Of a stretch of 52,267 nt of DNA, positions 8,093-52,267 are shown piece after piece. Location: positions 1 to 52,267 of the IMG/VR virus record IMGVR_UViG_3300037041_003046. One strand, given 5' to 3'. The position numbers and the translations under genes are program-made. Every line of letters starts with the position of its first letter. Positions within the stretch are counted from its first letter, which is position 1. Source of the DNA: a virus. The notes beneath the pieces were generated by a model. The model worked only from the letters and a program-made list of their open reading frames with translations. It did no database searches and was not told the DNA's origin.

Positions 8093-9599
8093 AAAGATGG
8101 GCCTTCGCGCCTATCAGATGAAAGCCCGGCAGGACATCCACAAGGGCTTTGAGGATTTCGACCGCCAGCTTGGTGTGCTGCCGACGGGCGCTGGAAAGAC
8201 GATCCTGTTCAGCCGTCTGGCACAGGATTACCAACCCCAGCGCACGTTGATCCTCGCCCACCGCGAGGAACTTATCACCCAGGCAGTGGAAAAGCTCCGC
8301 GCATCCACGGGCATCGAGGCTCAGATCGAGATGGGCGACGAGCGGGCGTCACTCGATGCGCCGGTCGTAGTGGCTTCCGTGCAAACGCTCATGCGTGAAA
8401 AACGTCGTGAGCGGTGGCCGCGGGATCACTTCGGCCTGGTGGTCGTCGATGAAGCGCACCACGCGCTGGCCGACAGCTATCTCAACACGCTCGGGCATTT
8501 CCACGACCACGCAAAGGTGCTGGGTGTGAGCGCGACGCCGGACCGTGGCGACAAGAAGAACCTCGGCCGCTATTTCGAGAACATCGCCTGCGAGGTGACC
8601 TTGCTGGATCTGGTCAATCAAGGATGGCTCTCGCCGATCAAGGTGAAGACCGTTCCGTTAGGGATGGATCTTCGCGGCGTGCGCACCACGTCGGGTGACT
8701 TCAGCGCCGACGATCTCGGGCATGCGCTCGAACCGTATCTCGAACAGATCGCGGATGTGATGGTGGAAAATCGTCACCGCAAGACGCTCGTGTTCCTGCC
8801 CTTGATCGCCGTGTCGAAACGCTTTGCCGAAATCTGCCGCGACCGTGGTTTGCTGGCTGAGCATGTCGATGGTCAGACGACCGAGCGGCAGGCGACGCTT
8901 GAGAGGTTCCGCCGCGATGAGACGCGCATCCTCTGCAACGCGATGTTGCTCACCGAAGGATATGACGAACCGTCGATTGATTGCGTCGTGTGCCTGCGGC
9001 CAACAAAGGTGCGTGCGCTCTACTCGCAGATCATCGGACGCGGCACGCGGATCTGGCCCGGTAAGGATCACTTGCTCGTGCTCGATTTCCTCTGGCAGGC
9101 GGGAGAGCACAGCCTGATGCGCCCGGCGAACCTGATCGCCGAAGACGAAGCGGACGCGAAGGCACTCACCGACAAACTCGGTGCCGAGGGCGACCTCGAA
9201 GAAGCACGCGAGGAAGTGAATGCGGATCGCACCCGTTCTCTAACTGATCGGCTTCGAGCCAACCGGACGCGTCGCGGCAGTGTGCTGGATCCACTGGAGC
9301 TTGCCGTCTCCCTCAACGAAGCCGCCTTGGCTGACTATGTCCCGACCATGCAATGGCAGGCGGACGCGCCCACGGCGAAGCAGATCGATGTGCTGGCCAA
9401 GTTCGGTCTCGATACCGGGGGCATTCAAACCAAGGGACACGCCTCCCTGATCCTCGACCGCCTCATCACCCGTCGCAAGCTCGGTCTGGCGACGCCGAAA
9501 CAAGTCCGCGTGATGCGCCGCTACGGCCACCAACGCCCGGAACTCGCCACCTTTGAGGAAGCCAAGGCGTTTCTCGACACCCAATTCGCGCACCGTTGA
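8073..9599 (+). CDS. DEAD/DEAH-box superfamily 2 helicase
   Basis: 508 residues from ATG 8073; ATG 8097 (MGLRAYQ) is an equally plausible start. Q-motif-like RAYQMKARQDIHKGF, Walker A PTGAGKT, Walker B VVVDEAHHAL, motif III VSATPDR, and motif VI QIIGRGTRIWPGK identify an SF2 helicase with two RecA domains. The C-terminal ~130 residues (after TRSLTDRLRANRTRRG) contain two short repeats, one built around PTAKQIDVLAKFG and one around ATPKQVRVMRRYG, probably small DNA-binding helices. It overlaps the SSB gene by 20 bp and precedes the primase-helicase. Confidence 0.9.
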   Translation: MTTNHSEKMGLRAYQMKARQDIHKGFEDFDRQLGVLPTGAGKTILFSRLAQDYQPQRTLILAHREELITQAVEKLRASTGIEAQIEMGDERASLDAPVVVASVQTLMREKRRERWPRDHFGLVVVDEAHHALADSYLNTLGHFHDHAKVLGVSATPDRGDKKNLGRYFENIACEVTLLDLVNQGWLSPIKVKTVPLGMDLRGVRTTSGDFSADDLGHALEPYLEQIADVMVENRHRKTLVFLPLIAVSKRFAEICRDRGLLAEHVDGQTTERQATLERFRRDETRILCNAMLLTEGYDEPSIDCVVCLRPTKVRALYSQIIGRGTRIWPGKDHLLVLDFLWQAGEHSLMRPANLIAEDEADAKALTDKLGAEGDLEEAREEVNADRTRSLTDRLRANRTRRGSVLDPLELAVSLNEAALADYVPTMQWQADAPTAKQIDVLAKFGLDTGGIQTKGHASLILDRLITRRKLGLATPKQVRVMRRYGHQRPELATFEEAKAFLDTQFAHR

Positions 9600-20441: not shown

Positions 20442-21087
20442 TTCTCCCAAAGCTCGCACACTCGCCAATGGCATCGAAGTCTGGTGCAGCTTCGACAAGC
20501 TCGTGCCGGTCGGTGAATTGAAACCCAATCCGCGCAACCCGAACACCCACCCGCAGCGGCAGATCGAACTGCTCGCCAAAAACATCCGCTACTTCGGATG
20601 GCGGCAGACAATCACCGTTTCCAATCTCACCGGCTTGATCGTTTCCGGTCACGGCCGATTGATGGCTGCCAAGCACCTCGGCGCGGAAGTCGTGCCGGTG
20701 GACTATCAGGACTTCGCCAGCGAGAACGATGAACTCGCCGTGCTGGTGGCAGACAATCGTTTGGCCGAACTTTCCACGGTCGATCTCAACGAACTCGAAA
20801 AAATCGCCAGCGAGTGGAAGTCCATCGACTTCGATACGATCCTCGCAGGCTTCGAGCCTGCCGACATCGAGGGTCTGCTCAATCCGGGTGGCAATGACGA
20901 TGACGAGGATGACGACGACCGCCACGACAAGGAACTCGACAAGAGCGACGTCACCGTCGCGGTCGGACTCTATCGGTTCCGCATCACTCAGGAAGAATTC
21001 ATCGCGTGGTGCGACCGCGTGAAACAAGACGCCGGTTTCGACAAGGAAAGCGTTCTCAACGAAATCCGCAGCCGCCTCGGACTATGA
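20431..21087 (+). CDS. ParB/Srx-like domain protein
   Basis: 218 residues from ATG 20431. The N-terminal ParB-like core shows PNPRNPNTHPQRQIELLAKN, GWRQTITV and IVSGHGRLMAAKHLG, as in phage ParB-type nuclease/DNA-modification partner proteins. A stretch of consecutive acidic residues (NDDDEDDDDRHD) separates it from a C-terminal small domain. The start is supported by a TTGAC box 21 nt upstream. Coupled (ATGA) to the ParB-methyltransferase fusion, with which it probably acts. Confidence 0.85.
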   Translation: MTDDSPKARTLANGIEVWCSFDKLVPVGELKPNPRNPNTHPQRQIELLAKNIRYFGWRQTITVSNLTGLIVSGHGRLMAAKHLGAEVVPVDYQDFASENDELAVLVADNRLAELSTVDLNELEKIASEWKSIDFDTILAGFEPADIEGLLNPGGNDDDEDDDDRHDKELDKSDVTVAVGLYRFRITQEEFIAWCDRVKQDAGFDKESVLNEIRSRLGL

Positions 21088-22598
21088 ACATCACCCTCGA
21101 ATCCATCGACGCCGTTAGACCATCGACCTACAACCCAAGGTCGGCAGTTGCCGAGCGGCTTGACCTGATAGAACTATCGCTACGCAAGCTCGGTTTCATC
21201 GCCCCGATCTTCGCCGACTCGGACGGCGAGATTCTTTCCGGCCACCAGCGCCACCTTGTTGCATCGCGCATGGGTGCCACGCACGTTCCGGTATCCCGGA
21301 CCAAGGCGCTCGACCTCGACCAGCGCAAGGCTCTCAACATCGTGTTCAACCGGGCGACCAACGATTTCGATTTCAACAGCACTCCCGGCAGGGTCACAAG
21401 CGAACTGCAATCACTGGACATCGAGGCGCTCGCCGCCCGCATCCCCGACAAGGAGGTCGGCAGCGATGGATTCCTGCGCTGCCTCAAGCCTGCGGAAGTG
21501 AGCGTGAAGGATCTCTGCAAAGTGAACTCGGGCCGCTGGATCCAGTATGCCCGCAACCTCGCCCGCACGCTGCATCGCCACGGCATCCTCATGCCCATCG
21601 TTTGCCGCGAGGATCTCACGGTCATCAACGGAATCGGTCGTCTGGAAATGCTGGCAGAGAAAGGCGCGGCCTTCGCTCCGGTCGTGTTCGTCACCGAGGA
21701 GGAAGCGGAATTCGCTCGGGCCATGATGAATCTGCTCTCAATGGATTTCGACATCCACACGCGCTATGCCGACATGCTGCGCTTCAACTCGTTCCGCCGC
21801 GCACGCCGCGTCCGTCGCGAGCTTGGCAACGGTTTCATCTTCGCGACGCATGGCGCGAAGCCATGCAAGGACTTCGACATCGGCAAAGCATCCGACCGCG
21901 CCCGCTGGACCAAGGAACACGGCTCGACCATCCTCGACTTCGGTGCCGGCCACCTGACCGAAACCTTCCTCCTGCGCCAGGCCGGCATTGACTGCACGCC
22001 GTTCGAACCGTATCGCCTTGGACCAGGGGGCATCAACAAGGCGGAGAGTGTGGAACTGGCACGCGCCTTTCTAGCCGAAGTGGCGGCGGGCAAAGAGTGG
22101 ACGAGCATCTTCATCGCCAGCGTGCTGAATTCCGTGCCGTTCCGTGAAGACCGCGAGCACATCGCCTGCCTCTGCGCCGCTCTGTGCAAGCCGTTCACCA
22201 AGGTCTATGCCTGCGCATCGTCCGCGGGTGAATCCGGCTGGCGGCAGGTCAACGGCAAGGCGTTCATGAATGAGTCTAACGCGGGTAACATCGCGTTCCG
22301 CCTCGACTACGAACCCGGCATTCGCATCGGTGATTTTCAGGACAAGCCCAAGGTCCAGAAGTATCACACCGTTTCGGAGTTCCGCGACCTCTTCGGCCCG
22401 TTCTTCCGTTCGGTGAAGGTCGATGACTTTTCCAACAACATCAACGCGGCCTGCGCGTCGGCGCGTCCCGTCGATCCAGCCCGCCTGCGTGCGGCCATCG
22501 AGTTCGAATTCAACCTGCCCTATCCGGACGGCACCCGCATGGAACTCGTGCAATGCGCCATGGACTCTTTCTCTCAACGTCTTCAGATTACCCTATGA
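21084..22598 (+). CDS. Tandem ParB-like domains fused to a class I methyltransferase-like domain
   Basis: 504 residues. First ParB-like domain (residues ~1-100: PSTYNPRSAVAERL, ILSGHQRHLVASRMGA), second (~150-235: RHGILMPIVCREDLTVINGI, GRLEMLAEKGA), then a Rossmann-type domain from ~285 whose first loop STILDFGAGHLTETFLLRQA matches SAM-binding motif I, with an acidic PFEPY at the end of the second strand. No DPPY or Pro-Cys catalytic motif is seen, so the target is open; it could modify DNA, protein or a small molecule. Typical location just before terminase genes. Confidence 0.75.
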   Translation: MNITLESIDAVRPSTYNPRSAVAERLDLIELSLRKLGFIAPIFADSDGEILSGHQRHLVASRMGATHVPVSRTKALDLDQRKALNIVFNRATNDFDFNSTPGRVTSELQSLDIEALAARIPDKEVGSDGFLRCLKPAEVSVKDLCKVNSGRWIQYARNLARTLHRHGILMPIVCREDLTVINGIGRLEMLAEKGAAFAPVVFVTEEEAEFARAMMNLLSMDFDIHTRYADMLRFNSFRRARRVRRELGNGFIFATHGAKPCKDFDIGKASDRARWTKEHGSTILDFGAGHLTETFLLRQAGIDCTPFEPYRLGPGGINKAESVELARAFLAEVAAGKEWTSIFIASVLNSVPFREDREHIACLCAALCKPFTKVYACASSAGESGWRQVNGKAFMNESNAGNIAFRLDYEPGIRIGDFQDKPKVQKYHTVSEFRDLFGPFFRSVKVDDFSNNINAACASARPVDPARLRAAIEFEFNLPYPDGTRMELVQCAMDSFSQRLQITL

Positions 22599-34822: not shown

Positions 34823-36511
34823 ATGGCCAAGCTCACCGCACTGCTGACACTCAACACGGCTGGATTCCAGTCCGCGTTGAAGACTGCCAAGTCGGAAACC
34901 AGCGGCTTGAAAAACTCGATGGCCGGCATGTCGTCGGGCGCATCCAAGGGGTTCGCGTCGATGGGCAGCGCCATGAAATCCGTGGCCAAGGGAACGGCAG
35001 TTGTCGCCGCCGCTGTGGCAGCCGCAGGCGCGGCGATTGGCGCGTTGACCTACAAGCTGATCCTGTCGGGTGAGGCGGCGAACTCAGCCGACGCCCGCGT
35101 TCGCAACATTGCCAAGTCGATGGGGCTGTTCGGCGACCAGTCCGACGCGGTGGCTGAGCGACTCAACAACCTCGCGGACAAGATTGAGTTGCAGACCGGA
35201 GTGGATGGCAATGCGATCCAACTCACCCAGGCGAAACTTCTCACCTTCAAGGAACTCGCCAATACCGCCGACGAGCTGGGCGGCAATTTTGATCGGGCCA
35301 CCCAGGCGGCCGTGGACATGGCGGCGGCTGGTTTTGGCGCTGCCGAACAGAACGCCGTCCAGCTTGGCAAGGCGCTGAACGATCCGGTCAATGGACTCGC
35401 TGCCTTGCGGCGTTCGGGCATTACCTTCACCGAAGATGAGAAGGCGAAGATCAAGACTCTGGCCGAATCCAACCGGATGCACGAGGCGCAGGCGTTGGTG
35501 CTCGCCGCCATCGAAAAGCAGGTCGGCGGCACGGCGGCGGCAACCGCGGACGCCTCCGTCCAGATCAAGGCCGCGCTGAATCAGGGATTTGAGGAAGTGG
35601 GAAAACCACTGGCGGCAGCACTCGCATCCATCACGCCGCAGTTCCTCGAATTCGTGGAAATGGCCAAGCCCAAGCTGGCGGAAGCCGGACAGTTCCTGGT
35701 CGCGATCTTTCGCAGCGGCGAGGCACTCAACCTTGTCTGGTCGTCGCTCAAGCTGGCCTTCGCGCAGAGCGTGAATTTCCTGTGGGCAACCCTGCGGGCG
35801 ACCATCGCCGCCACCGGCCAATACATCGTCGAATATTTCAAGACGGCGGTCACCTATTTCCAAATCCTCACGACTCCCGAGTTCTGGAGCGGGATGGGCA
35901 ATGCCATCATCGGGATTTTTCTATCAGCCATCAGCTTCCTTCAAAAAGGATTCTCGGAAATCATCGAGGTGGCGCGCCCGCTGGCCGAGTTGTTTGGCAA
36001 AGAGGATGCGTTCAACGGCATCCAGAAGACGATCCGCGAGAGCGCGGCGATCCTCGATGAAGACGCGGCGGCGCGGTTCTCGAAGGCCGGTGACCTGTTG
36101 GAACCTGCCGCACAGAAAATCGCCCAACGTCTGGCAGAAGCCGGTGAGAACGTGAAGACCCGATTCAGCGAGACCTTCGCAAACACAGCGGAAGCCATCG
36201 ACACGTCCGGCATGAAGCGTGAGTTCGGCGATACCGTGGAGCGCATCAAAGCGGCCATTCCTCCGGTGAAGACGGGCAAGCAAATTGGAATGGCAGCAGC
36301 GGACGAAAAGCCAACGGCTCCGGTAGTCATCGCGGGCGGGTCAGGACAGCTCGGTTCCTTCGCGCAATCCATGAACATGCTCTTCGGCCGCAGCGCGAAT
36401 GCAGGGCTGCTAGAGGAAAACAAGCGGCAGACCGACTGGCTCAAGAAGATCCACGACAACACCAAGAACAGGGGCACTACCCCGGAGCCGGCGGAGGCGG
36501 TTTTCGCGTAA
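34823..36511 (+). CDS. Tape measure protein
   Basis: 562 residues. Long alpha-helical protein, alanine rich, with hydrophobic segments VVAAAVAAAGAAIGALTYKL and NAIIGIFLSAISFL. It follows the G-T chaperone frameshift and is the longest gene of the tail cluster so far, as expected for the tape measure that sets tail length. It is short for this class, predicting a tail near 80 nm using the usual 0.15 nm per residue rule. A TTGAC box lies 22 nt upstream. Confidence 0.8.
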   Translation: MAKLTALLTLNTAGFQSALKTAKSETSGLKNSMAGMSSGASKGFASMGSAMKSVAKGTAVVAAAVAAAGAAIGALTYKLILSGEAANSADARVRNIAKSMGLFGDQSDAVAERLNNLADKIELQTGVDGNAIQLTQAKLLTFKELANTADELGGNFDRATQAAVDMAAAGFGAAEQNAVQLGKALNDPVNGLAALRRSGITFTEDEKAKIKTLAESNRMHEAQALVLAAIEKQVGGTAAATADASVQIKAALNQGFEEVGKPLAAALASITPQFLEFVEMAKPKLAEAGQFLVAIFRSGEALNLVWSSLKLAFAQSVNFLWATLRATIAATGQYIVEYFKTAVTYFQILTTPEFWSGMGNAIIGIFLSAISFLQKGFSEIIEVARPLAELFGKEDAFNGIQKTIRESAAILDEDAAARFSKAGDLLEPAAQKIAQRLAEAGENVKTRFSETFANTAEAIDTSGMKREFGDTVERIKAAIPPVKTGKQIGMAAADEKPTAPVVIAGGSGQLGSFAQSMNMLFGRSANAGLLEENKRQTDWLKKIHDNTKNRGTTPEPAEAVFA

Positions 36512-39130: not shown

Positions 39131-39543
39131 TCAAAAGGCAGCAGGTATAGTCGATCATCCCCGACAGGGGACGACCTTGCCAATTCCTTCCGAAGCAGAT
39201 TAGATCGGTCTCCGTGAACGATGATTTGGAAATTTTGCTTTTTGACATCGAAACTCTCTACGCAAGAGTTCACCAAAGTGCCCGGGAAGTATGTTCAGAT
39301 CGAGGTATTCGGCTCCGTGAGATCGATCTTTCGAACAATTGGGATTTAGCAAAACAGCATGAAGTGCGACATTTTCCGCAGTGTCTTCTTTTTCGTAACG
39401 GCAAGCTCATAGGAGAAAACCATTTCATTTTTCACTCTCCTCAGACCTTCTCTGACTGGATTGATAAATCTTTGGCAGCGGATTCTGGTTAAGGATTTTT
39501 TACACCCTAAAGCGGTCATTTAGGCGAAGCATTCGAGCTGTGA
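39119..39543 (+). repeat. 12-bp direct repeats flanking a moron-like cassette
   Basis: TTCGAGCTGTGA at 39119-39130 and 39532-39543 bracket the thioredoxin-like gene. The right copy is immediately followed by the TTGACGC box of the next tail gene, so without the cassette the stop codon of the 53-residue gene would adjoin that box directly. This looks like an insertion scar. Confidence 0.65.
39214..39492 (+). CDS. Thioredoxin-fold moron-like protein without CxxC
   Basis: 92 residues, GTG start. EILLFDIETLYARVHQSARE and DLAKQHEVRHFPQCLLFRNG match the thioredoxin central strand, helix and cis-Pro loop (HFPQ). There is no CxxC, so it is unlikely to be redox active. Composition is less GC-rich than the flanking tail genes, and it lies in the 12-bp repeat-bracketed insert. 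Function unknown; T7 gp5-like use of thioredoxin is only an analogy. Confidence 0.6.
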   Translation: MNDDLEILLFDIETLYARVHQSAREVCSDRGIRLREIDLSNNWDLAKQHEVRHFPQCLLFRNGKLIGENHFIFHSPQTFSDWIDKSLAADSG

Positions 39544-39575: not shown

Positions 39576-41927
39576 ATGCAGGCCACCGTTTACGCCAATC
39601 TCACCACTCGCAGGCTGACCACGACGCTTGGCGGCAGCGCGATTTCATTCCCGGCTTTCGTCCAGGGTGACAAGGTGCGCATCGGACTGCGCTTCGCCGA
39701 ATCGCTCGAAGGCTCACCCATCGAGGTCCAGAGGATTTTGACGCACATCCGCGCCTCCATCGGATTTGTCGATGCCCGCCCGACATCTGGCTTCTTTGTG
39801 CTGCGAGTGGACGGTCAAGACACCGCGCCGATCCCTCACGACGCCACGGCGGGCACTGTGCAAACCTCTCTCGCCGCCATCGGATTGGATGACGCGGTGG
39901 TCGGCAAACAGGATGGCTCGTGGATTATTTCCACCGGCCTGCAGGAAATCGCGCTGTCCGGACATTCTGCCGGGGGACTGCTCTCCGAATTGCGGCCCGT
40001 CTCTTTCGTGCGCGTTCGCTCGACGCAAGTGGCCGGACAATATCGCCACGAGGTCCGGCTCGTGCAGGCGCCGCTCGCATCGACTGCGAGCTTCGAATTG
40101 ATCGTGCCGCCCGCACCCACCGTGAGCGAGGTGCAGGCAGGCGGAGCATCGGCCACGACGCTCTGGCCCGAAATCCAGGCACTCAAAATCCAACCGACCT
40201 TCAAGGGCACCTATCAGTTGCGACGTGGGTTCAAGAAAACCCGCGAATTGTCGGTGGATGATGGCCCCGAGGAAATTCAGGACGCGCTCACGGTGCTGGC
40301 TGACGATGGAGGATCATTCTCCGTCAGCAACCCGGCGACCAACATCGCCCACATCACCTTCAACGGCGAGATGGCCGGCATTGACCAAGAGTTGATCGAG
40401 GTCGCTGTATTTTCCGCGCCGCCCGGTGATCCGACCGTCATCCTCGATCTCAACACCTCAGAAATCGCCGCCGCGCTGCGCGGAGCTGCCGAAGTAAAGC
40501 CCGACTTGGAAATTGAAGTCGCAATTCAAGATGAGAACGATCCTGACAAGACCTACACGCTCACGCCGTTCCGCGCTCCGATCTCCCTAATTCGCGAACT
40601 CAACTGGGAGGGACTCGAAACCGCCGCCAATATCGACTGGCTGCGACCTCCCTATGGCAGGACGTATGTGCCGTTCACGCCAGACCAGATCATCACCGGC
40701 TCACAGCACTACGTCGCGCCCGTCGGTGATGGCGTGAACTCGGACTTCACCATCAGTCACAACCTTGGCACCCGCGACCTGCACGTCACCGTCCGCCAAA
40801 ACGGCGGCAGTCGCGCCATCGTGGAGCCGCTGTCGGTCACCTTGGATGGCGAGGATGATCTCAGCATCACTTTCGCGGAAGCGCCCCCGCTGAACGGCTA
40901 TGTCGTCACCATTTCCACCGCAGGCCCGGTGTCCGTATTCCAAACGCACGGCCACACCATCGCCCAAATCGAGGGGCTGCAACTGATCCTCGATGACTTG
41001 GGCGAACGCGTTGAAGACCTGGAAACCTTCATCCCGACCTCGCTGCCGAGTGTCAGCAACACCCAGCAAACCGTGATCGCCGCATGGGAACTGCCGGAAC
41101 TCTTCGAGGTGTTTCCGACGCGCCAGAAGATCGAGGCAAAGGACGTGCCCTCGATCAAACCCGCCGACCTGCCACGAGTTGGCGGCCTGCTACCAGCCGT
41201 CCATGTCGATCCACTTGTCTTCACGACGGCCAACGTCCTGCCGACCTCGCCCGCGACAGGTGTGATCTATCAATACACCGACCCGACAGCTCCTCTGGTG
41301 ATCCCCGGCTATCTCGGCCGTCGCTCGACCAAGCTCAACGCCCCGGGATTCTATGCATGGGACGGTCGCGGTTTTTATCAAGTGGAACAGATCATCACGG
41401 GCGAGCAGGTGTTTTACCCGACGGACTTTTCCCGCGAGCTGTTCCGCATCCATGTCAACGGCAAGCAACTGCGAATGAGCAAGCGGCTCTCGATAGACTT
41501 CTCGTTCGTCGCCGCCGTCTTCAACTCGAACACCTTGGTTCATTGGGGAGTGGCCATCGACATCGGCTTGCCATCGGGCAATCCACCAAGCCCGAGCAAC
41601 ATCGCGGATGTCACTTTCCTACCGCCGTCGCTCGATCACAGCTTCATGCTCACGAGTATTCCTTCCTCACACGGCTTCGGCCTGCGCGTTGTCCGCAAGA
41701 TCGTCGATTCCGTCGATACCTGCGTTGTGGATCGTGTGATCTACGGAGCCACGGAAGCCACGCCAACCACGATGACCACCGCCAACTTCATCGTCCGGGG
41801 CCGCCTTGTCCGCTTCGACACCGACGACCACCAGACCGACCCACGCGGACTCGTCGCCTTCAACGGACTCAAGGCAACCCTCACCGGCGAAGAACCCGAA
41901 AGCCTCGGCAAAGCAACCATCCAATAA
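39576..41927 (+). CDS. Large tail structural protein (783 aa)
   Basis: Beta-rich throughout, with repeats of small beta modules and a domain around FTPDQIITGSQHYVAPVGDG, TISHNLGTRDLHVTVRQNGG that is common at the distal end of phage fibres. A coiled-coil stretch (AQIEGLQLILDDLGERVEDL) follows. Probably a tail fibre or central tail tip protein. The next two genes also belong to this distal cluster. Confidence 0.65.
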   Translation: MQATVYANLTTRRLTTTLGGSAISFPAFVQGDKVRIGLRFAESLEGSPIEVQRILTHIRASIGFVDARPTSGFFVLRVDGQDTAPIPHDATAGTVQTSLAAIGLDDAVVGKQDGSWIISTGLQEIALSGHSAGGLLSELRPVSFVRVRSTQVAGQYRHEVRLVQAPLASTASFELIVPPAPTVSEVQAGGASATTLWPEIQALKIQPTFKGTYQLRRGFKKTRELSVDDGPEEIQDALTVLADDGGSFSVSNPATNIAHITFNGEMAGIDQELIEVAVFSAPPGDPTVILDLNTSEIAAALRGAAEVKPDLEIEVAIQDENDPDKTYTLTPFRAPISLIRELNWEGLETAANIDWLRPPYGRTYVPFTPDQIITGSQHYVAPVGDGVNSDFTISHNLGTRDLHVTVRQNGGSRAIVEPLSVTLDGEDDLSITFAEAPPLNGYVVTISTAGPVSVFQTHGHTIAQIEGLQLILDDLGERVEDLETFIPTSLPSVSNTQQTVIAAWELPELFEVFPTRQKIEAKDVPSIKPADLPRVGGLLPAVHVDPLVFTTANVLPTSPATGVIYQYTDPTAPLVIPGYLGRRSTKLNAPGFYAWDGRGFYQVEQIITGEQVFYPTDFSRELFRIHVNGKQLRMSKRLSIDFSFVAAVFNSNTLVHWGVAIDIGLPSGNPPSPSNIADVTFLPPSLDHSFMLTSIPSSHGFGLRVVRKIVDSVDTCVVDRVIYGATEATPTTMTTANFIVRGRLVRFDTDDHQTDPRGLVAFNGLKATLTGEEPESLGKATIQ

Positions 41928-41929
41928 TC

Positions 41930-42679
41930 ATGGCCATTCCCGTCATTTCCAACACCACCTCCGTCCTCGGCTATCGCAAGGGGCAGTATTTCGAGTATCA
42001 GATGCAGGCGACCAACTCGCCGACATCGTGGACTGCGAGCGGCCTGCCGTCGGGCATGTCGATCAACTCGTCTGGCCTCGTGAGTGGAGCGGCAATCTCC
42101 GCCGGGGTGTATCTCGTGAAAGTCATCGCCAGCAATGCTACCGGCCCCTCCGCGCCGCTGGAAGTGGCGATGGGTATCGAAGATACGAACTTCAATGACG
42201 GCATCGGCATCGAGGTGAACATCGACCTGCGATCCGGAGCGGTTTCGGTCCCCGGCATCACGCCTTCGTCGGGCCAGAACGCGAGCCAAGCCGTCATGTT
42301 CCTTAAATACGGCGACAAGGTGTTTCTTGACGTCGGATTCCTCAAGGGGGAAGAGCTGCAAACGATGGCGATGGCATCCATCGTCATGAACATCCGCGAG
42401 TTCGATGGTGAGACCGTGCTGGTTCAGAGCAACGGCGGCTTGGAAATCATCGGCACCAGCGACCGCCCGCGCTACCGCATCCTGGTCAATCTCGACACGC
42501 CGGATCTCCTCAACGCACTCGCCAACTACCAAGCCGACTATCAGACGACCTTCGACGCCATTGCCGAAATCGAGTGGCGCGTTGACTACCTCGAACCGGG
42601 AGCGCTGTCCGACGAGGTCATCCGCTCGTCCAAAACCTTCCGCCTCGCCATTGACCGCGACCTCGTTCCAAACCCATGA
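41930..42679 (+). CDS. Tail protein with Ig-like putative-Ig domain
   Basis: 249 residues from ATG 41930. Residues ~25-65 (SWTASGLPSGMSINSSGLVS and GAAISAGVYLVKVIASNATG) match the He_PIG bacterial Ig-like domain, often used for adhesion. The rest is beta-rich and ends with RLAIDRDLVPNP. Overlaps the next gene by 4 bp. Likely host-recognition accessory. Confidence 0.7.
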   Translation: MAIPVISNTTSVLGYRKGQYFEYQMQATNSPTSWTASGLPSGMSINSSGLVSGAAISAGVYLVKVIASNATGPSAPLEVAMGIEDTNFNDGIGIEVNIDLRSGAVSVPGITPSSGQNASQAVMFLKYGDKVFLDVGFLKGEELQTMAMASIVMNIREFDGETVLVQSNGGLEIIGTSDRPRYRILVNLDTPDLLNALANYQADYQTTFDAIAEIEWRVDYLEPGALSDEVIRSSKTFRLAIDRDLVPNP

Positions 42680-43125
42680 CCTACGGCTCCGGCATGATCT
42701 GGCCTCTGGCCGCCGAATACGCCCGTCGCGGGTGGGCAGTTCGTCGTGCCGGATGGGATGATCTTGAACTGTTTGGCGACACGGGCCGCGCCTTGCGTTG
42801 GGTTGTCTATCAGAACGCGTTGTTCTGGTTGCTCTATCGCGCTCCTGTCACCGGAACCAAGGTCACACGCGTCATTCGTAACACGGATTTCGTGGTCGAG
42901 GATTTCTATGCCGAGGATTGGACTGTGCTTTCACCCACCTGTTTCGATGGGGTGAATGTCACGGGTGCTGACCTCTACCAACAGGGCAAGAAGCGGTATC
43001 CGCGCCCGCTCGATGTGTCGCCCGTGGTCGATCCGCGCAACCCGAATTCGAAGTATGGCGCGTGCCCCGTAGTTCCGCTTTACGACTCCATCCGGGTTGT
43101 CACTTCACCCACGCAATCGCCATGA
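42676..43125 (+). CDS. Tad2/DUF2829-like protein, copy 1
   Basis: 149 residues. The pattern PLAAEYARRGWAVRRAGWDD at the start and DFVVEDFYAEDWTVLSP at residues ~73-90 matches the DUF2829 domain (F..A...L..G..V.R.GW ... D..A.DW.v), the family of Thoeris anti-defence protein Tad2, which sequesters the cyclic ADP-ribose signal. About 55 extra residues follow. Its position in the tail cluster is unusual for an anti-defence protein, so a structural role is an alternative. Coupled to both neighbours by ATGA overlaps. Confidence 0.65.
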   Translation: MTYGSGMIWPLAAEYARRGWAVRRAGWDDLELFGDTGRALRWVVYQNALFWLLYRAPVTGTKVTRVIRNTDFVVEDFYAEDWTVLSPTCFDGVNVTGADLYQQGKKRYPRPLDVSPVVDPRNPNSKYGACPVVPLYDSIRVVTSPTQSP

Positions 43126-45122
43126 GCATCGGACACGGCATGATCTGGCCTCTGGCCGCCGAGTATGCCCGCCGTGGATGGGCGGTGCGACGTGCGGGAT
43201 GGTCGGACGAAATCACCAACCCATTCAACAAAGCATCCTCGCTGCGCTGGATCATCTATCACAGCGGATTGTTTCATCTGACGTATCTGAACCGAGGCGA
43301 CGATTTTATTGTCGGGAACGTCAGCCGCGTGGTCCGCAACACCGACTTCGGCGTCGATGAGTTTTATGCCGACGACTGGACGGTCTATGCACCGGGTTGC
43401 TCGGCCACCCCCGCGCCCGACCAGCAGGGAAAATTCTGGTATCCAGGCGCGGTTGATGACGAGCCATACACCAACCCCACGGTGCCTGGTGCTGGCGGCA
43501 CAGAATGCCCGGACGTGCCCCCCGTCATTGACGATCCACCTCCGAACTGCGGCGGGCCATGCCAACCGCCACCCTACTGCGGCCCGAACTTCAAACTCGT
43601 AACCGGCGGTTATGATTCGTGCGGCTGCCGAATTTACATCTGTCAGCCGAAGTTTTGCGCGGATCCTCCCCTGTGTCCGCCTGGAACGACTCTGCGCATC
43701 AGTGGCTACAATGATCTTGGATGCGCGATTTGGATGTGCAGGCCGGATGATCGCCAGCCATGCGGCGATCCGCCCGAGTGTGGACCGAACACCAAGCTCG
43801 CGGTGAGCGGGCGTGATGCGAGGGGCTGCCTAACCTACATTTGCCAACCCACATTCTGCCCCGATCCTCCCAACTGTCCTCCCGGCCAACTCTCGTTTGT
43901 CGTCGGCACAGACGACCAAGGATGCTCCATCTTCGAGTGCAAGCCGGACAAACCGCCATGCCCGCCGCCGCCTGATTGTGGGCCGGATGCGAAGCCCGCC
44001 ACAAACGGAGTGGATGCCAACGGCTGCCCGACCTACGTCTGCCAACCGATCTTTTGTGGCGACCCGCTCGCGTGCCCACCGGGACAAACCAGCATCGTCA
44101 CGGGCTATGACAACGCCGGGTGCGCGATATGGGGATGCAGGCCGGATGATGAACCGTGCGGCGACCCGCCTGACTGCGGTGATGGATTCAAACTGGTGGA
44201 AACAGGAGTGGATGCCAATGGCTGTACAACCTTTGAGTGCCAGCCGACATTCTGCCCCGATCCACCTGATTGTGGTGCAAATGGCATGAGGGTTGTGATT
44301 GGCACCGATGCCAACGGTTGCAACATCTATCAGTGCCAGCCGCTACCTTGCAATGATCCTCCGCTCACATGCCCCGAGGGGCAAGTTGTCGATTGGGTGT
44401 CCTACACCGACCGAGGCTGTGTTTTGGCGTGGGGATGCAAACCGGATGATGGAGGAGGCGGCGGTGGCGGTGGGGGCGGCGGAGGTGGTGGCGGCGGCGG
44501 AGGGGGAGGTCCTCGACCACCGAGGCCACCGCCGAATCGTGACCCGGCCCAGATCACCATCGAGAACGTGACGTGGACGCCTGACTGCTTCCTCGATAAC
44601 ACCGCGCCACCATTTCAGATCCAGTTAGGATTCCGGGTTACGCTCGGCGCGGCTCCGACCGCGTATGCCAACGGCATCTATTGGGTGTCGGTCTATGTCC
44701 ACGGCAAGAAGGTGGACGCTCCCAACATGACACCGGGGCAATCCATCGACTACTCGGAAGCCGTCCAACAGGACTTGGGTAAACCCGTGCTGATTCGCGC
44801 CAACGCGTATCTGCCCATCAAGCGGATTCAGTCCAATGATCAGCACGAGTTTAACTTTCCGGACATGTGTACTGGCGAGGGATGCACCAACCCCTACGCC
44901 GTGAACTATGACCAGTTCGCATACATCGACGACGGCACCTGCGAAACCTGTGCATCGCAAGGAAAGTGCATCCCCAATGATTCCGACGAGGGAGACAACT
45001 GCAACGATGTCGGCAACGGCTGCTGCGATGGATACTGCGAAACCGCCAACGATTGCAGCCCGACCTTTCGCAGCTCTTTCACCGCCACAAATGGAACCTA
45101 TTACCCAAGCTGTTTCGGATAA
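43122..45122 (+). CDS. Tad2-like domain fused to cysteine-rich repeats and poly-glycine tract
   Basis: 666 residues. Residues 1-92 repeat the copy-1 domain (PLAAEYARRGWAVRRAGWSD, DFGVDEFYADDWTVYAPGCS). From ~140 to ~440 come about eight tandem modules of 35-45 residues with CxxP-C...GxDxxGCxxYxCQP spacing, like antistasin-type disulfide modules. Then about 20 consecutive Gly codons, a Pro-rich segment, a beta domain and a second Cys-rich C-terminus. It is probably displayed on the virion or acts extracellularly; cysteine pairs would oxidise outside the cytoplasm. Confidence 0.7.
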   Translation: MSIGHGMIWPLAAEYARRGWAVRRAGWSDEITNPFNKASSLRWIIYHSGLFHLTYLNRGDDFIVGNVSRVVRNTDFGVDEFYADDWTVYAPGCSATPAPDQQGKFWYPGAVDDEPYTNPTVPGAGGTECPDVPPVIDDPPPNCGGPCQPPPYCGPNFKLVTGGYDSCGCRIYICQPKFCADPPLCPPGTTLRISGYNDLGCAIWMCRPDDRQPCGDPPECGPNTKLAVSGRDARGCLTYICQPTFCPDPPNCPPGQLSFVVGTDDQGCSIFECKPDKPPCPPPPDCGPDAKPATNGVDANGCPTYVCQPIFCGDPLACPPGQTSIVTGYDNAGCAIWGCRPDDEPCGDPPDCGDGFKLVETGVDANGCTTFECQPTFCPDPPDCGANGMRVVIGTDANGCNIYQCQPLPCNDPPLTCPEGQVVDWVSYTDRGCVLAWGCKPDDGGGGGGGGGGGGGGGGGGGGPRPPRPPPNRDPAQITIENVTWTPDCFLDNTAPPFQIQLGFRVTLGAAPTAYANGIYWVSVYVHGKKVDAPNMTPGQSIDYSEAVQQDLGKPVLIRANAYLPIKRIQSNDQHEFNFPDMCTGEGCTNPYAVNYDQFAYIDDGTCETCASQGKCIPNDSDEGDNCNDVGNGCCDGYCETANDCSPTFRSSFTATNGTYYPSCFG

Positions 45123-45697: not shown

Positions 45698-46348
45698 ATG
45701 GTCGTGAAGCTCCACGTCGATCTTGAGACGCTACAACTCATCCAGGGACCGGGCCAGCGGAGCGCGGTCAGCACCCTGCGTTTCAAGCGTGGCGATGCCG
45801 CCCGCCTTCAGGTGGTGTTCCTCGAAAACGGCATCACGCCCGCCACGATTGGCGATCCGGGTAATCTCGAAATTCAGATCGGCATCAAGCCGCGAAATCA
45901 GTTCGACCGCTCCTATCTCGCACACAGCGCGGACTGGTCGATGCCATCGGAGGGCGACGACACGCCAGCCTACGGATGCACTATCAGTTTCAACACGCTG
46001 CAACTCAACTCGGCACTCAACATCGGATCACCGACTGCCGAGGAGCTTCCTGAAGTCACGCTCATGGGCGAGATCACATGGCGCGAAGGCGCGGGTGAGC
46101 CGACCAGCACGCGCACCTTCCTCGTGGTCGTAGAAAACGACGTGAACCGGGGCGATGAGGGAGTGCCCACAGATGCCGATCCGCCTTATCCGCCGCCCGG
46201 TTCGTTCGTGATGAAGTCTGACGAGGGCTTTGAAGTCACGCTGCGCGACACCCTCAAATCCTTCGATGCCAACACGGCGACCATCGACCAACTCATGGAC
46301 GTATTCGCCACCCTACTTTCCACCCTCAAATCCAAAAACGTCATCTGA
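45698..46348 (+). CDS. Phage late protein, unknown (216 aa)
   Basis: Beta-rich protein (VKLHVDLETLQLIQGPGQRS, VTLMGEITWREGAGEPTSTR) with a helical C-terminus. A TTGAC motif lies 13 nt before ATG 45698, or 19 nt before GTG 45704, which would give a two-residue shorter product. Stop overlaps the next start (TGATG). Not recognised. Confidence 0.55.
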   Translation: MVVKLHVDLETLQLIQGPGQRSAVSTLRFKRGDAARLQVVFLENGITPATIGDPGNLEIQIGIKPRNQFDRSYLAHSADWSMPSEGDDTPAYGCTISFNTLQLNSALNIGSPTAEELPEVTLMGEITWREGAGEPTSTRTFLVVVENDVNRGDEGVPTDADPPYPPPGSFVMKSDEGFEVTLRDTLKSFDANTATIDQLMDVFATLLSTLKSKNVI

Positions 46349-47202
46349 TGAAGCCGCGTAACATCATTCTCTCGCTGGCCCTCATCGCGGCGATTCAGTT
46401 CGTCGTGGGCGAGGAACGCTTGGGCGACCTCAACCGAGACTCGGTTGTCCTCACTCCCGGTGACGACATCAACGCCCCAGGCGTCACTACGAAGGACGGC
46501 TTTCCTGTGTTCGAGATTGTCGTCCCCGAGGGATATGTCGAAGTCCAAGTCCGCGCCAGTCTCACCAACTTCGAGCCGGGGTTTCTGCTCAAGAAATTCG
46601 ATGAATTCACTCACAACTACATCCCGACGGGTGTGATGGTGAACGGGCGCAAGCAATATCGGGCGCTTGGCACCCAGTTTCTGGCAGAGTGGGACGGTTC
46701 TAAATGGTCATTCGGCCAGGATGGCTTGGTCTCATTCGAAAATAACGAAGAACCGTGGAAATGCACTGTTTTCAGTTCCAACACCGGGATCGCATATTCG
46801 CTTCAGAAGGAATACTTCGTCTATCGGTTCTGCACCACGGGAATCCCGGCAGATGCCCAGTGGGGCAAAGGTTCCGGTGATCCCGATGCCTGGGTGTTCA
46901 TCGCCAACCAATCCGCCACCCCCGGCGACAACACTGAGTTCAAGCGGCAAAAATGGGACGAGAACTCGTCGCTCACCGCCCAACTGCAACCCGGCGGAAC
47001 TCCCGGCTACACCGTCCTATTCCAGCCGAGCCGGGCCAACCTCGGAGCCATCGAGTGGATGCAACAGAACCACGACAAGCTCGTCTGGATCTATCAGGTC
47101 GAATCGCCTGCCGGAAAACCCAAGCACCCGAACGGCTCGGACGTGTGGAACGCCCTTCATCCGAAGGAGTGGCGCAAAAACCGAATCACTCTCACCCCAT
47201 AA
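46348..47202 (+). CDS. Secreted protein with signal peptide (284 aa)
   Basis: N-terminal KPRNIILSLALIAAIQFVVG is a clear Sec signal peptide with cleavage near G22-E23. The mature part is beta-rich, with aromatic residues (EWDGSKWSFGQDGLVSFENN). No enzyme motif seen. First of three consecutive genes with signal peptides, an uncommon feature in a tail/late phage region. Confidence 0.65.
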   Translation: MKPRNIILSLALIAAIQFVVGEERLGDLNRDSVVLTPGDDINAPGVTTKDGFPVFEIVVPEGYVEVQVRASLTNFEPGFLLKKFDEFTHNYIPTGVMVNGRKQYRALGTQFLAEWDGSKWSFGQDGLVSFENNEEPWKCTVFSSNTGIAYSLQKEYFVYRFCTTGIPADAQWGKGSGDPDAWVFIANQSATPGDNTEFKRQKWDENSSLTAQLQPGGTPGYTVLFQPSRANLGAIEWMQQNHDKLVWIYQVESPAGKPKHPNGSDVWNALHPKEWRKNRITLTP

Positions 47203-47211
47203 CCAATACCA

Positions 47212-48276
47212 ATGAAAATGAAACCACTGACTGCCATCGCAATCACCATCATCGGCGCACTACACGCTGTTGCCGCTCAACCAACCCTCCTTGATCTCGC
47301 GAAAGCACGGGACGCCAAGGTTGTCGCAGCGCAAGCTGCGCTCACCCAGGCCCAAGCTGCTGCCGCCGCGACCAATCCTCCGGGCACCGTCGATCCCAAA
47401 CTCGTTTCTGCCGTCACCAAGGCGCAGTCGGAAAATGTCGATCATGTCGCCAAGCTGATCGGCCCTGAGTGGCGCGTGGCATGGGAAGCCAGCACGCTGC
47501 CTGACCCCGACGACCTTCTCGCGGATCGCTACATGCAGAATCCTTTCGACCTGCGGCCTGTCTGGAAAATGGAGGCGCTTACGCTCATGCAGTCCATCAG
47601 CCTACTGAAGCGTGCCGAGTTGCTCGATCACATCGCAGCCAAGCCGACGCTCATCGCGCAAGACATCGAGGTGATCCGCTATGCCGGAATTCATCGACCT
47701 GGTATTGCCGCCCGCATGGCTGAAATCGCGAAGCTCCTGCCATCGGGTGGCATCCGCGGCGAGGAATTCTATCAGTTCCGCAACATCCATGTGCTGTGCC
47801 GCAGCATCTCGCCAAACGCGTGGCTTTCGACCATGAAGGTGACCGAGTGGATCGACCTCGCCATGCAGCCGGCGCACGTATCGCCCGCCACCTTCACCGC
47901 TGGTCGCGACAAGGTAATGCTCAAACTGGCCCGCCTCCTTATCGAAAAGCGCCAGGCTCAAGGACTGCCAACCGAAGGCGCAGAGTTCGATGCGGCGTTC
48001 GTTCCCATCCTCGCCGCGTTGAAGGAACCGAAGTTCGCCGGCCTTCGCGAAATCGTTGCCGGTCTTGAACTTCCAATCACGCTGCCGAGCGATCTCGACT
48101 GGTCCGCCCAGGAAGCCGTCGCCGCCACGGTGCAGGAAGCGGCTGAGCGCAATGGAGCCTTCATTACTTCATGGGGCGAGTCCGTATCTTATGCGCAGGG
48201 GCTTGGCAGCGTGATGTTCGTCAAAGGCGAAGCCGCTTACGAAGCATGGAGGCTGGCGACCATTGCCAACGACTGA
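47212..48276 (+). CDS. Secreted protein with signal peptide (354 aa)
   Basis: N-terminal KMKPLTAIAITIIGALHAVA predicts a signal peptide cut near A21-Q22. The mature protein is alpha-helical and Ala-rich (LDLAKARDAKVVAAQAALTQ), perhaps a coiled-coil surface or periplasmic protein. Not recognised. Confidence 0.65.
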   Translation: MKMKPLTAIAITIIGALHAVAAQPTLLDLAKARDAKVVAAQAALTQAQAAAAATNPPGTVDPKLVSAVTKAQSENVDHVAKLIGPEWRVAWEASTLPDPDDLLADRYMQNPFDLRPVWKMEALTLMQSISLLKRAELLDHIAAKPTLIAQDIEVIRYAGIHRPGIAARMAEIAKLLPSGGIRGEEFYQFRNIHVLCRSISPNAWLSTMKVTEWIDLAMQPAHVSPATFTAGRDKVMLKLARLLIEKRQAQGLPTEGAEFDAAFVPILAALKEPKFAGLREIVAGLELPITLPSDLDWSAQEAVAATVQEAAERNGAFITSWGESVSYAQGLGSVMFVKGEAAYEAWRLATIAND

Positions 48277-48305
48277 TCCATCCAAGCTCCAACCACGAGA
48301 CGACC

Positions 48306-48941
48306 ATGAAAGCACACCTTCTCATCGCCGCGCTGCTCGCCAGCCTTGCGCAAGCCAAGCCGTTCCCGCCCGCACCCAGCTTGAATGAGCTGGTGGCGGC
48401 AGCGGCCAAGGATCGCAAGCACAACGCTCCCTACTACGCGGAAAGCCCCGCGCCGTCGGTAACCCCCGCAGTCATGCAGATCGGGAGGCCGGTGGAATTG
48501 CCGGTGCTGGATCGTCTCGTGGCTTTGCCCGTGAAAACGCTGCCCGCTCATCCGCTCAGCCGGACGCCTGCGGAAGCGGTTGGACTATCTTCGACTCTCC
48601 GGAACGTCGCACCGCATCCAGCCGCATCAACCACGTCACCGGTGAATCTTCGCACGCTAGTCCCGCTCATTTTCAACAAACCATCCGGGTTGATGGCGGC
48701 AAGTCCTGTGAGGACTCTTCCCGGCATTGCTCAGATGACCGTTGATCCGTTCCGGCTCAAGCTGGAGTTCATTTGGGAAAAACCGCACGGCCAGTGGATG
48801 AACCAACTGCTCAAGGATATCAACGCGGCCAAGGCGGCCGGCGACATCGAAACCTACAACGCACTCACCGCCCGCTACGCGGCATGGGCTGAGAAATACC
48901 TTCGCAGCGCCGAGCCTCCGAATCTCGACGGACTCCGTTGA
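48306..48941 (+). CDS. Secreted protein with signal peptide (211 aa)
   Basis: N-terminal MKAHLLIAALLASLAQAKPF predicts a signal peptide cut near A17-K18. Pro/Ala-rich middle and a short helical C-terminus (LKDINAAKAAGDIETYNALT). Not recognised. Third of the trio of exported late proteins; could act in the envelope during lysis or as lysogenic conversion factors. Confidence 0.6.
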   Translation: MKAHLLIAALLASLAQAKPFPPAPSLNELVAAAAKDRKHNAPYYAESPAPSVTPAVMQIGRPVELPVLDRLVALPVKTLPAHPLSRTPAEAVGLSSTLRNVAPHPAASTTSPVNLRTLVPLIFNKPSGLMAASPVRTLPGIAQMTVDPFRLKLEFIWEKPHGQWMNQLLKDINAAKAAGDIETYNALTARYAAWAEKYLRSAEPPNLDGLR

Positions 48942-49201: not shown

Positions 49202-49429
49202 TCAGGCGGCGTTGGTTCCGTATTTCCTCCGGATGGCGTCCATGACTGCCTCGACTTCGTAGAGATAAAGTCGAGGAGTCACTTTGATGCACGGTATTTC
49301 ACGACGCTGAACCCACGCATCAATCGTGTGGGGGCTGACTGAGAGCCGTTTTGCGAGTTCCTTCTTTTTGATCAGAATGGGATCGTTCTTCGTCGCCGGA
49401 TCGTTGGTGGTGTGAGTGAGTGTTTTCAT
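49202..49429 (-). CDS. Excisionase-like helix-turn-helix protein
   Basis: 75 residues. KKKELAKRLSVSPHTIDAWV, then KVTPRLYLYEVEAVMDAI form a MerR/AlpA-type winged HTH like phage excisionases. It follows the integrase on the same strand with overlapping ends and is preceded by a TTGAC box 25 nt upstream. Small size and position next to int support an excisionase/directionality factor. Confidence 0.75.
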   Translation of the reverse strand: MKTLTHTTNDPATKNDPILIKKKELAKRLSVSPHTIDAWVQRREIPCIKVTPRLYLYEVEAVMDAIRRKYGTNAA

Positions 49430-50754
49430 GATTGCTCACTGTTATCGCTGTCAACACGCGGTGTCCCATCTTGTGCCAGCAAGCGCCGCATCCGTTCCCG
49501 CAGGCTGTGCTTGAGTCCCGTCGGCATCCAGCCATCGGGAGGCGTCATCCCGAACCATGTCCGGGCGGCTTCCTCATCCACGATTTCCCGATAGTGGCGG
49601 AAGATCATTTTCGGGGAGTTGCCTGCCTCCAGAGAGGTTCGAGCTACGTCGCCTGTCAGTGATACTCGATAGCTGATGAACGAGTGTCTGAGGGCATTCT
49701 GACGCCATCCGCCGGGGATTTTCGCCTTCACTGCGGTATCACCCAAGGCACCCGATACATCGCTGATCGTGAGGATAGGGCCGGTTTCATCACGCCATGG
49801 CGCAAGCCACGCCTTGAGATTCTCGGGGAGGGGGACGAGTCGCCGCGCCGCCGTCTTCGCCTTGTGGCCGGCGATCTCGATGTGGCCGCGATCCCATTTG
49901 ATGTCCTGCCAGGTGAGGCGTTCGACCTCGGCAGACCGAATTCCGCAAAATCCGCCGATGGCGATGAGCGGCAGGATGCGGGCGTGGGCGGCGAGCAGGA
50001 TGTCACGCATCTCGTCCGGCGTAAAAATCTCGATCTCCTTCTCAGGCTCCTTGAACGAGTCGCTCTGTTCCGCAGCAGTTTTCCGGTCGGGATGGAGGTA
50101 TCCCTGTTTCTTGGCGAATCCAAACATCGTAACGAGGTTGCGCCGAATGCCGTTCTTGCTGACCGGCCCAAGCGTCTTGAGGCTGTCGAGGAACCGGTTG
50201 ATGTCGGCCACGCTGACATCTGCGATATTTCCCGGCATGGCATCGGTGACCCGCTTGAGGCTGCTAGTCGCGTTCCGAACATAGATGGCACTCACGCCCT
50301 TGCGTTTCAGCGACACGACGAACTCGGCGGCTACCTGGACGTTGGTGCGGACGGCAAATAGATCTGCCCGGTTTGCTTGATAGAACCGCACCGCATCGGA
50401 CAGTGGGATTTCACCTGCGGCTTTCCGTGCGCTGGCCCATTCGTCCATCGCGGCGGAAAGACCGACTCCATGCTCCCGAGCTACTTGCTCGCAGTGGCGG
50501 AGCAGGTCGATGTCGCGGCGGGTCGCTTCATCGGCGGCCGTCCAGCCATTGGTCAGACGGACGCTGATCTGCTGGGCGATCATCCGTGCTTCGTCCATCG
50601 AGGAGAAGCTGCGCGTCTTGCGCCTGGCCGCCTCCTTCCATGAAAGCGTGAACTCGGGATAACCATCCCGACGGTTCATCGTGTAGATTTTGATTCTCGC
50701 GGGACCGTTGCCGATTTCCACGACACTGCTACGGCGTTTGCGTTTCCGGGTCAT
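49426..50754 (-). CDS. int: Tyrosine integrase
   Basis: 442 residues from ATG 50754 (MTRKRKRRSSVVEIG). A longer in-frame ORF runs to 51396 but crosses the tRNA gene and lacks family similarity. N-terminal SAM-like core-binding domain, then the catalytic domain with Arg in GFCGIRSAEVERLTW, Lys in GHKAKTAARRL, the NALRHSFISY block (Asn in place of the usual first His, as in a Verrucomicrobia-type subfamily), and the nucleophile Tyr in FRHYREI. A TTGAC box lies 21 nt upstream. It lies 117 bp from tRNA-Ser, the likely attachment site. Confidence 0.95.
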   Translation of the reverse strand: MTRKRKRRSSVVEIGNGPARIKIYTMNRRDGYPEFTLSWKEAARRKTRSFSSMDEARMIAQQISVRLTNGWTAADEATRRDIDLLRHCEQVAREHGVGLSAAMDEWASARKAAGEIPLSDAVRFYQANRADLFAVRTNVQVAAEFVVSLKRKGVSAIYVRNATSSLKRVTDAMPGNIADVSVADINRFLDSLKTLGPVSKNGIRRNLVTMFGFAKKQGYLHPDRKTAAEQSDSFKEPEKEIEIFTPDEMRDILLAAHARILPLIAIGGFCGIRSAEVERLTWQDIKWDRGHIEIAGHKAKTAARRLVPLPENLKAWLAPWRDETGPILTISDVSGALGDTAVKAKIPGGWRQNALRHSFISYRVSLTGDVARTSLEAGNSPKMIFRHYREIVDEEAARTWFGMTPPDGWMPTGLKHSLRERMRRLLAQDGTPRVDSDNSEQS

Positions 50755-50871
50755 AGACCCCGGCTTTCGAGTCAACTTGTCAGAAAAACTGTCAGGAAAA
50801 TCTGTCCCGGTTTGCTCTGACGGCTCGCAAATTGTTGATGGTGTATCAGTTGCGTCGATTGAGCAACCAGA

Positions 50872-50961
50872 TGGCGGACAGGGAGGGATTCGAACCCTCG
50901 GTGACATTGCTGCCACACACGCTTTCCAAGCGTGCTCATTCGACCACTCTGACACCTGCCC
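50872..50961 (-). tRNA. tRNA-Ser (GGA), probable attachment site
   Basis: A complete 90-nt tRNA on the minus strand. Acceptor GGGCAGG (5' end 50961) pairs with CCTGTCC; the anticodon loop CTTGGAAAG carries GGA; the variable arm is long, as in tRNA-Ser; T arm GAGGG-TTCGAAT-CCCTC; G discriminator and encoded CCA ending at 50872. The phage integrase gene follows immediately, so the 3' half of this tRNA is the likely attB/attR core. Confidence 0.95.
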
Positions 50962-51037
50962 TTGGAAGCGGGAAGCTAGGAACTGGATCGCGGCTTGGCA
51001 ATCCCTTTTTGCGATCTTTGAAAATTGGTGGCGAAGA

Positions 51038-51568
51038 TCACTCGCTGGCGACACGGGCGAGGATCCACAGCAGGTCGGAAAGGCGGTTGAAAAAGAGCCG
51101 CACGACTTCGGGCACGGGCTCGCCGGATTCGTGGAGGGCGAGCACACTGCGTTCTGCACGGCGGGCGACGGCTCTCGCATAATCAAGGCCTGCGCGCGCG
51201 AGCGAACCTTCGGCACCGGGACGGGCCCAACCGGTGAAGCGGATGCCTTGGGCTTCGTAGCGGTGCGCCTCGGCGACGACCCAGTCGAGATCGGCCGGGG
51301 TAAGGGCGGCGTATTTTTTCTCGAGATAGCGGGCTTCGTCTTCGGGCAGGTAGGCGAGCTGCCCCATGAGGCCGACGAGGCGGGACTGGAGTTCATCGAT
51401 CAGCGTGATCCACTCGTCGTTGCTGGCGGCGGCACGGGCGAGGCCGAGCGCGGCGTTGAGTTCGTCGACGTTGCCGAGGGCTTCGATGCGGAGGGAGGTT
51501 TTTGGGATGCGTTTGCCAAAGAGGAGGTCGGTTTCGCCCGAATCGCCGCGGCCAGTGATGATGCTCAT
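51038..51568 (-). CDS. Cob(I)alamin adenosyltransferase, PduO type (host)
   Basis: 176 residues from ATG 51568. GRGDSGETDLLFGKRI matches the N-terminal GDxGxT motif (ATP site), followed by EALGNVDELNAALGLARA and the helical bundle with LDYARAVARRAERSVLAL near the C-terminus, typical of PduO. Host chromosomal gene flanking the insertion; makes adenosylcobalamin from cob(I)alamin and ATP. Longer upstream extensions in the frame are unlikely. Confidence 0.93.
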   Translation of the reverse strand: MSIITGRGDSGETDLLFGKRIPKTSLRIEALGNVDELNAALGLARAAASNDEWITLIDELQSRLVGLMGQLAYLPEDEARYLEKKYAALTPADLDWVVAEAHRYEAQGIRFTGWARPGAEGSLARAGLDYARAVARRAERSVLALHESGEPVPEVVRLFFNRLSDLLWILARVASE

Positions 51569-51637
51569 GGCGGAAAAGTTACGCTGAGGAAAATTCAATG
51601 TCCATCCGCGTTCATTCGTGGTTTGTAGGGGGCGTCC

Positions 51638-52267
51638 ATGAAACTCGCAAAACTCGGCGACGGCCCGGAAATTTTCCACACGATCCAAGGCGAAGGCGTG
51701 AGCGTCGGTGCGCCCGCGGTATTCATTCGCGCGTCGCGCTGCAATCTGCACTGCGTCTGGTGCGACACCGACCACACGTGGAATTTTACTGGCACGCCGT
51801 GGCCGCACGCGAAGGACACGGTGGCGGGCTACACCAAGCACATGAAGGCGGAGGTGACTTACGAGATCACTCCGCTGGAGGCAGCGACGCAGATTTTGAG
51901 CTACGGTTGCGGGCGCACGGTGATCACGGGCGGCGAACCGCTTTTACAAGAGCCGGAGTTTTTGGAGATGATCGGCCATATCCGGGCGCAGCAGCCGGAG
52001 CATCAATTCGAGGTGGAGACGAATGGCACGCGCTTGCCCTCGGCGGCGTTTCACGAGGCGGTAAATCAGTTCAATGTTTCGCCGAAGCTGGCGAACTCGG
52101 GCATGGTGGCGGCGCTGCGATTGAAGGCCGACGCGCTGGCGTTTTTCGCGAACTCGCCGAAAGCTTGGTTCAAGTTCGTGGTGGCGGAAGCTGCGGATCT
52201 GGAGGAAATCCAAATACTCTGCGACACCTACCAGCTGCCGCGCCAACGCGTGCTTCTGATGCCGGAA
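51638..52267 (+). CDS. queE: 7-carboxy-7-deazaguanine synthase QueE (host, cut at window edge)
   Basis: Radical SAM enzyme of queuosine/7-deazapurine synthesis, converting 6-carboxytetrahydropterin to CDG. N-terminus has IFHTIQGEGVSVGAPAVFIR, the RCNLHCVWCDT radical SAM cluster (CX3CX2C), VITGGEPLLQ and FEVETNGT. The gene is open at the right edge, about 210 residues seen. It diverges from the adenosyltransferase gene. Confidence 0.95.
   Translation, partial: MKLAKLGDGPEIFHTIQGEGVSVGAPAVFIRASRCNLHCVWCDTDHTWNFTGTPWPHAKDTVAGYTKHMKAEVTYEITPLEAATQILSYGCGRTVITGGEPLLQEPEFLEMIGHIRAQQPEHQFEVETNGTRLPSAAFHEAVNQFNVSPKLANSGMVAALRLKADALAFFANSPKAWFKFVVAEAADLEEIQILCDTYQLPRQRVLLMPE

Follow-up and report, generated by a model that had tools for sequence, protein, structure and literature searches.

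The window analysed here is the whole of IMG/VR record IMGVR_UViG_3300037041_003046 (positions 1 to 52,267; 52,267 nucleotides, one strand). It is a Verrucomicrobia prophage, in which the tailed prophage genes for a large terminase, portal, protease, major head protein, and tape measure protein were recognised, together with an excisionase-like gene. Near the right end, tRNA-Ser(GGA) (50872-50961, minus strand) falls inside the 5' part of a long minus-strand open reading frame (49426-51396) that was read by eye as an integrase, and the next gene (51038-51841, minus strand) is a host gene, cobalamin adenosyltransferase-like by eye. The tRNA-Ser is probably the site of integration, with host DNA making up the end of the record; no att repeat of at least 14 bases matching the tRNA-Ser was found inside the window. 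The prophage also carries a pair of genes at 8025-9599 and 21006-22598 (both plus strand), one encoding a restriction-type helicase-like protein (PADLOC mREase_IV/REase_I, E 2e-29) and the other a methyltransferase-like protein.

Two adjacent genes, designated A and B, form the end of the tail module, downstream of the tape measure gene (Table 1). The genes are joined by ATGA overlaps, with the start of gene A on the stop of T6 and the start of gene B on the stop of gene A. Within the module, a small open reading frame between T4 and T5 (39214-39492, plus strand) appeared thioredoxin-like by eye, without a CxxC motif; it may be connected with the Cys-rich gene B. On the 3' side of the module, three successive genes (46348-48941, plus strand) have signal-peptide-like starts, and no PHROG match was obtained for the two of them that were searched.

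Table 1. Features of the tail module and of genes A and B (positions in the window).
Feature	Position	Strand	Description
Tape measure protein	34823..36511	+	First of the tail module
T5	39576..41927	+	783-aa virion/tail protein; domain-independent anchor
T6	41930..42679	+	Ig-like (He_PIG) tail protein directly 5' of gene A; syntenic marker
Gene A	42676..43125	+	149 aa; stand-alone domain of predicted Tad2 fold, paralogue of the gene B N-terminus
Gene A domain			Residues about 6-87, followed by a short Pro-rich tail, predicted disordered
Gene B	43122..45122	+	666 aa; N-domain of predicted Tad2 fold fused to a Cys-rich fibre-like protein
Gene B N-terminal domain	43122..43394	+	Predicted Tad2 fold; delimited by gene A alignment; family HMM E 1e-40
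Gene B Cys-rich repeats	43560..44342	+	About 30 aa each, C-x-D-P-P-x-C ... G-C ... C-x-P
Gene B poly-glycine linker	44451..44509	+	Seen again in distant relatives
Gene B segment after linker	44547..44867	+	82-88% identical in most close relatives
Gene B C-terminal tip	44868..45119	+	Unrelated sequence instead in some close relatives

The alignment of the gene A domain with the N-terminal domain of gene B showed about 50% identity, and the motifs MIWPLAAEYARRGWAVRRAGW ... NTDF..(D/E)FYA(E/D)DWTV are common to both. The pair was present in 12 of the first 13 IMG/VR relatives, the thirteenth of which ends at its contig end, and also in four Verrucomicrobia MAGs. The dN/dS values of both domains against their relatives were 0.04-0.20, and thus gene A and the N-domain of gene B are under strong purifying selection. 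Because the pair recurs in relatives and its dN/dS is this low, it is not a product of chance. Accordingly, the two neighbouring Tad2/DUF2829-like domains reported in the preliminary description were borne out, as was its account of the second copy as fused to a large Cys-rich protein, which contains 52 cysteines in total.

The kinship of these domains with Tad2 (Thoeris anti-defence 2) was examined by profile comparison. Direct searches with the window proteins against Pfam, PHROG, PDB sequences, and phages (tblastn) gave nothing significant. Against Pfam PF11195 (Tad2-like, the former DUF2829), the best score of gene A was 9.8 bits (E 1.5), below the gathering cut-off of 25 bits, and the family was not listed for the N-domain of gene B. 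PF11195 was listed for nine of ten distant relatives and ranked as the top family for eight of them (E down to 9e-4), the best relative reaching 20.2 bits, also below the cut-off of 25. In hhalign, the family profile matched that of 90 Tad2-like sequences with 92% probability and a local score of 41.4, compared with 10.8 +/- 2.7 (maximum 25.8) for 150 column-shuffled controls and 10.3 for the reversed control; the shuffles in global mode were set aside owing to one outlier. The Tad2 query used to fetch the comparators was a consensus, which was checked against solved Tad2 chains (E 2e-27). The reverse search with the family HMM recovered Tad2 proteins (E 6e-5 to 0.08), and PHROGs 1048, 872, and 643, which match the Tad2 consensus, also appeared weakly for the window genes. 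Annotated phages searched by tblastn with two Tad2-like relatives yielded nothing, nor did a viral scan with a single relative, and PADLOC gave no match for the domains. As judged from these profiles, the kinship of the window genes with Tad2 is real but remote, being visible only through relatives.

The fold was modelled on a compact relative, L216, whose alignment was trimmed to the domain and was more diverse, and which was used in place of the gene A model. The AlphaFold model of L216 had a pLDDT of 83.5. In the Foldseek search of the PDB, its top 18 chains were all Tad2/AcrIIA7 (probability 1.00, E 3e-4 to 1e-2), with the next match at E 0.5; the best named matches in the viral library were also mostly Tad2-like proteins. 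The full-length model of gene A (34 sequences) showed the same order of elements as Tad2 at lower confidence and gave no significant Foldseek match. On the L216 model, the predicted fold of the family is that of Tad2, and the same fold is predicted for the window genes because of their clear homology to the family. The comparison with Tad2 structures that had been proposed at the outset thus came out in favour of a Tad2-like family fold, and of the assignment to DUF2829, the fold was upheld by the profiles and the L216 structure, whereas the Pfam threshold was not reached.

The preliminary description left the choice between an anti-defence sponge of the Thoeris signal and a structural role. 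In Tad2, the gcADPR pocket is lined by loop b1-b2, strand b4, and loop b4-a3, and an insert between strands 2 and 3 provides the dimer contact (helix alpha2) and a cyclic dinucleotide site (PMC12043709). The residues N22 G23 K24, W71, and S74 Q75 were 93-100% conserved among the 90 Tad2-like sequences, figures that are inflated since these were fetched by similarity and are biased to close relatives. As a set, they were absent from the 24 aligned members of the tail family, their assignment to the pocket following the segment-level description in the review (PMC12043709); the ligand pocket residues of Tad2 are therefore missing here. The tail family keeps a core of A, G, R, W, D, and A-x-D-W, its b1-b2 loop is variable, and both models (gene A and L216) have a two-residue tight turn between strands 2 and 3. 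The known sponge activity is disfavoured because the signature residues are lost along with the strand 2-3 insert. The tail-family domain could bind another ligand in a different pocket.

A divergent sponge of the Tad2 type, made late from the tail operon, sequestering a nucleotide immune signal in a re-shaped pocket, and represented by gene A and perhaps by the N-domain of gene B, would agree with the small stand-alone form of gene A, with a fold that matches Tad2/AcrIIA7 only, and with the finding that Tad2 homologues vary in the ligands they bind (PMC12043709). Thoeris-type (ThsA-type) STALD domains were also detected in four of 190 genomes of the same bacterial order, but not in G001, a genome carrying the tail genes, and the distribution of STALD among hosts does not separate the readings strongly. 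This explanation is unlikely, in view of the missing invariant residues of the pocket segments and the variable loop between strands 1 and 2, the absence of both the insert for cyclic dinucleotides and the dimer helix, the core tail synteny, and the late timing that co-expression with tail genes would imply; moreover, most of the distant relatives have the fibre-fused copy only.

The presence of the domain was scored in loci fetched by T5 alone to avoid circularity, each counted if more than 1.8 kb was available downstream (n=48). T6 was also tried as an anchor for genome searches and was dropped, as it was swamped by ordinary Ig domains. In a separate BLAST of all tail genes, the order tape measure, T2, T3, T4, T5, T6, and domain gene was kept even at T5 identities of only about 28-42%. 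The domain was found in 29 of the 48 T5-fetched loci, mostly directly after T6, and occurred twice in 14 of those 29. No recognisable copy was found in the other 19, many of which have other large proteins instead. The domain module is replaceable, as expected of a fibre locus.

Relatives were found in Akkermansiaceae and other Verrucomicrobia MAGs, and distant copies, mostly single, were found among 387 genomes of the bacterial order. In the distant members, the domain stands at the N-terminus, with Pro/Gly linkers and additional domains behind it. The tree placed separate tandem duplications in the window lineage, L225, and L243 with moderate support, which suggests that the domain was probably duplicated in tandem at least three times. 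On one MAG contig (JAGYIT010000014.1), two diverged copies of the tail region (L094 and L095) lie about 157 kb apart, and the junction of genes A and B looks frameshifted in one of them. Outside the bacteria, a Tad2-like gene of a Methanomassiliicoccales virus (L252:5001-5234; BK063676.1 27697-27930) retains the WNGK/PWLASQTD motifs; it lies among hypothetical genes, overlaps a tail protein gene, and has a reverse transcriptase after it. The association of the Tad2 fold with tail modules may extend beyond the Verrucomicrobia lineage. Tail location alone is compatible with a sponge, because this archaeal-virus gene with intact motifs adjoins a tail gene.

The remainder of gene B has the layout of a fibre. 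Its Cys-rich repeat occurs in at least seven copies by pattern, the number of which differs among relatives, and the segment after the glycine linker is, judged by sequence alone, probably a beta domain. In two close relatives (L003 and L008), the tip is only 16-20% identical to that of gene B and the segment before it is 86-88% identical. A tip swapped beside a conserved segment is a pattern typical of receptor-binding fibres. The structural alternative is favoured because the tail-operon synteny is conserved and the architecture is fibre-like with swapped tips, so that, of the two roles initially offered, the structural one gained support and the sponge lost it with the pocket residues.

Both domains are therefore read as a divergent Tad2/DUF2829 branch with a structural function in the phage tail, with a probability of roughly 0.7. 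We infer that both products would be present in the virion, where the N-domain of gene B would serve to dock or oligomerise a tail fibre or adhesin, and the variable, swappable tip of gene B would be held toward the host surface for receptor binding by the Cys-rich repeats, the glycine linker, and the beta segment. Gene A, as a stand-alone paralogue, would probably complete the same collar or base, perhaps in a mixed assembly with the N-domain of gene B. The lack of a fibre part in gene A is a point against the structural reading, as are the 19 T5-fetched loci without a recognisable copy. A small stand-alone protein, whose gene overlaps T6 and gene B at its start and stop, would also suit a chaperone or assembly factor that acts on neighbouring tail proteins and stays outside the mature virion; this is improbable, as gene B and the distant relatives carry the domain within a single long fibre-like polypeptide. 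Finally, tail location and the fold of a ligand-binding protein could be combined in a virion part that is delivered with the DNA and binds the host signal immediately after entry, as the preliminary description suggested. Such a dual role is very improbable: the fused Cys-rich fibre, presumably disulphide-bonded, is unlikely to enter the cell, little of the ligand would be titrated by the small number of copies in a virion, and the Tad2 motifs are lost.

The origin of the sponge proteins becomes a testable question. It is possible, although doubtful, that the Tad2 fold was an old tail module recruited as a soluble sponge of immune signals, or the reverse, in which case an anti-defence protein family and a virion-part family would have one origin, and that some tail copies still bind nucleotides. 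In Verrucomicrobia phages, the predicted Tad2 fold is a recurrent component of tail operons in which the signature residues are absent. A Tad2-like domain alone is not equivalent to an anti-Thoeris sponge, which calls for caution in annotation. The products of genes A and B are probable host-recognition proteins of Akkermansiaceae prophages, and these candidates had no match among the annotated phage records searched.

Among known systems, the tail family resembles Tad2 (SPO1 Gp34.65, 8smf/8wje; ModTad2, 9eib/8v3e; SptTad2, 8wjd) in the alpha-beta-beta-beta-beta-alpha-beta order and in the core F/W-x-x-A...G..V.R..W...D.LA.DW, and Tad2/AcrIIA7 is its only confident fold match in the PDB. Unlike Tad2, it has no WNGK loop, PW..SQ motif, or strand 2-3 insert (20-30 aa in Tad2), and its domain is encoded among tail genes as part of a fibre-like protein. 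AcrIIA7 (PDB 8kbi, 8kbk) has the same fold and ranked together with Tad2; the motif differences from it are identical to those from Tad2. Modular tail fibres and adhesins comprise a conserved N-terminal domain that anchors them to the virion and a variable C-terminal tip. No precedent for a tail-fibre N-domain with the Tad2 fold was described in the literature searched. Gene B is like the modular tail fibres in its conserved N-domain, repeats and linker, swapped tip, and location where the tail module ends, and unlike them in that the N-domain is predicted to have the Tad2 fold.
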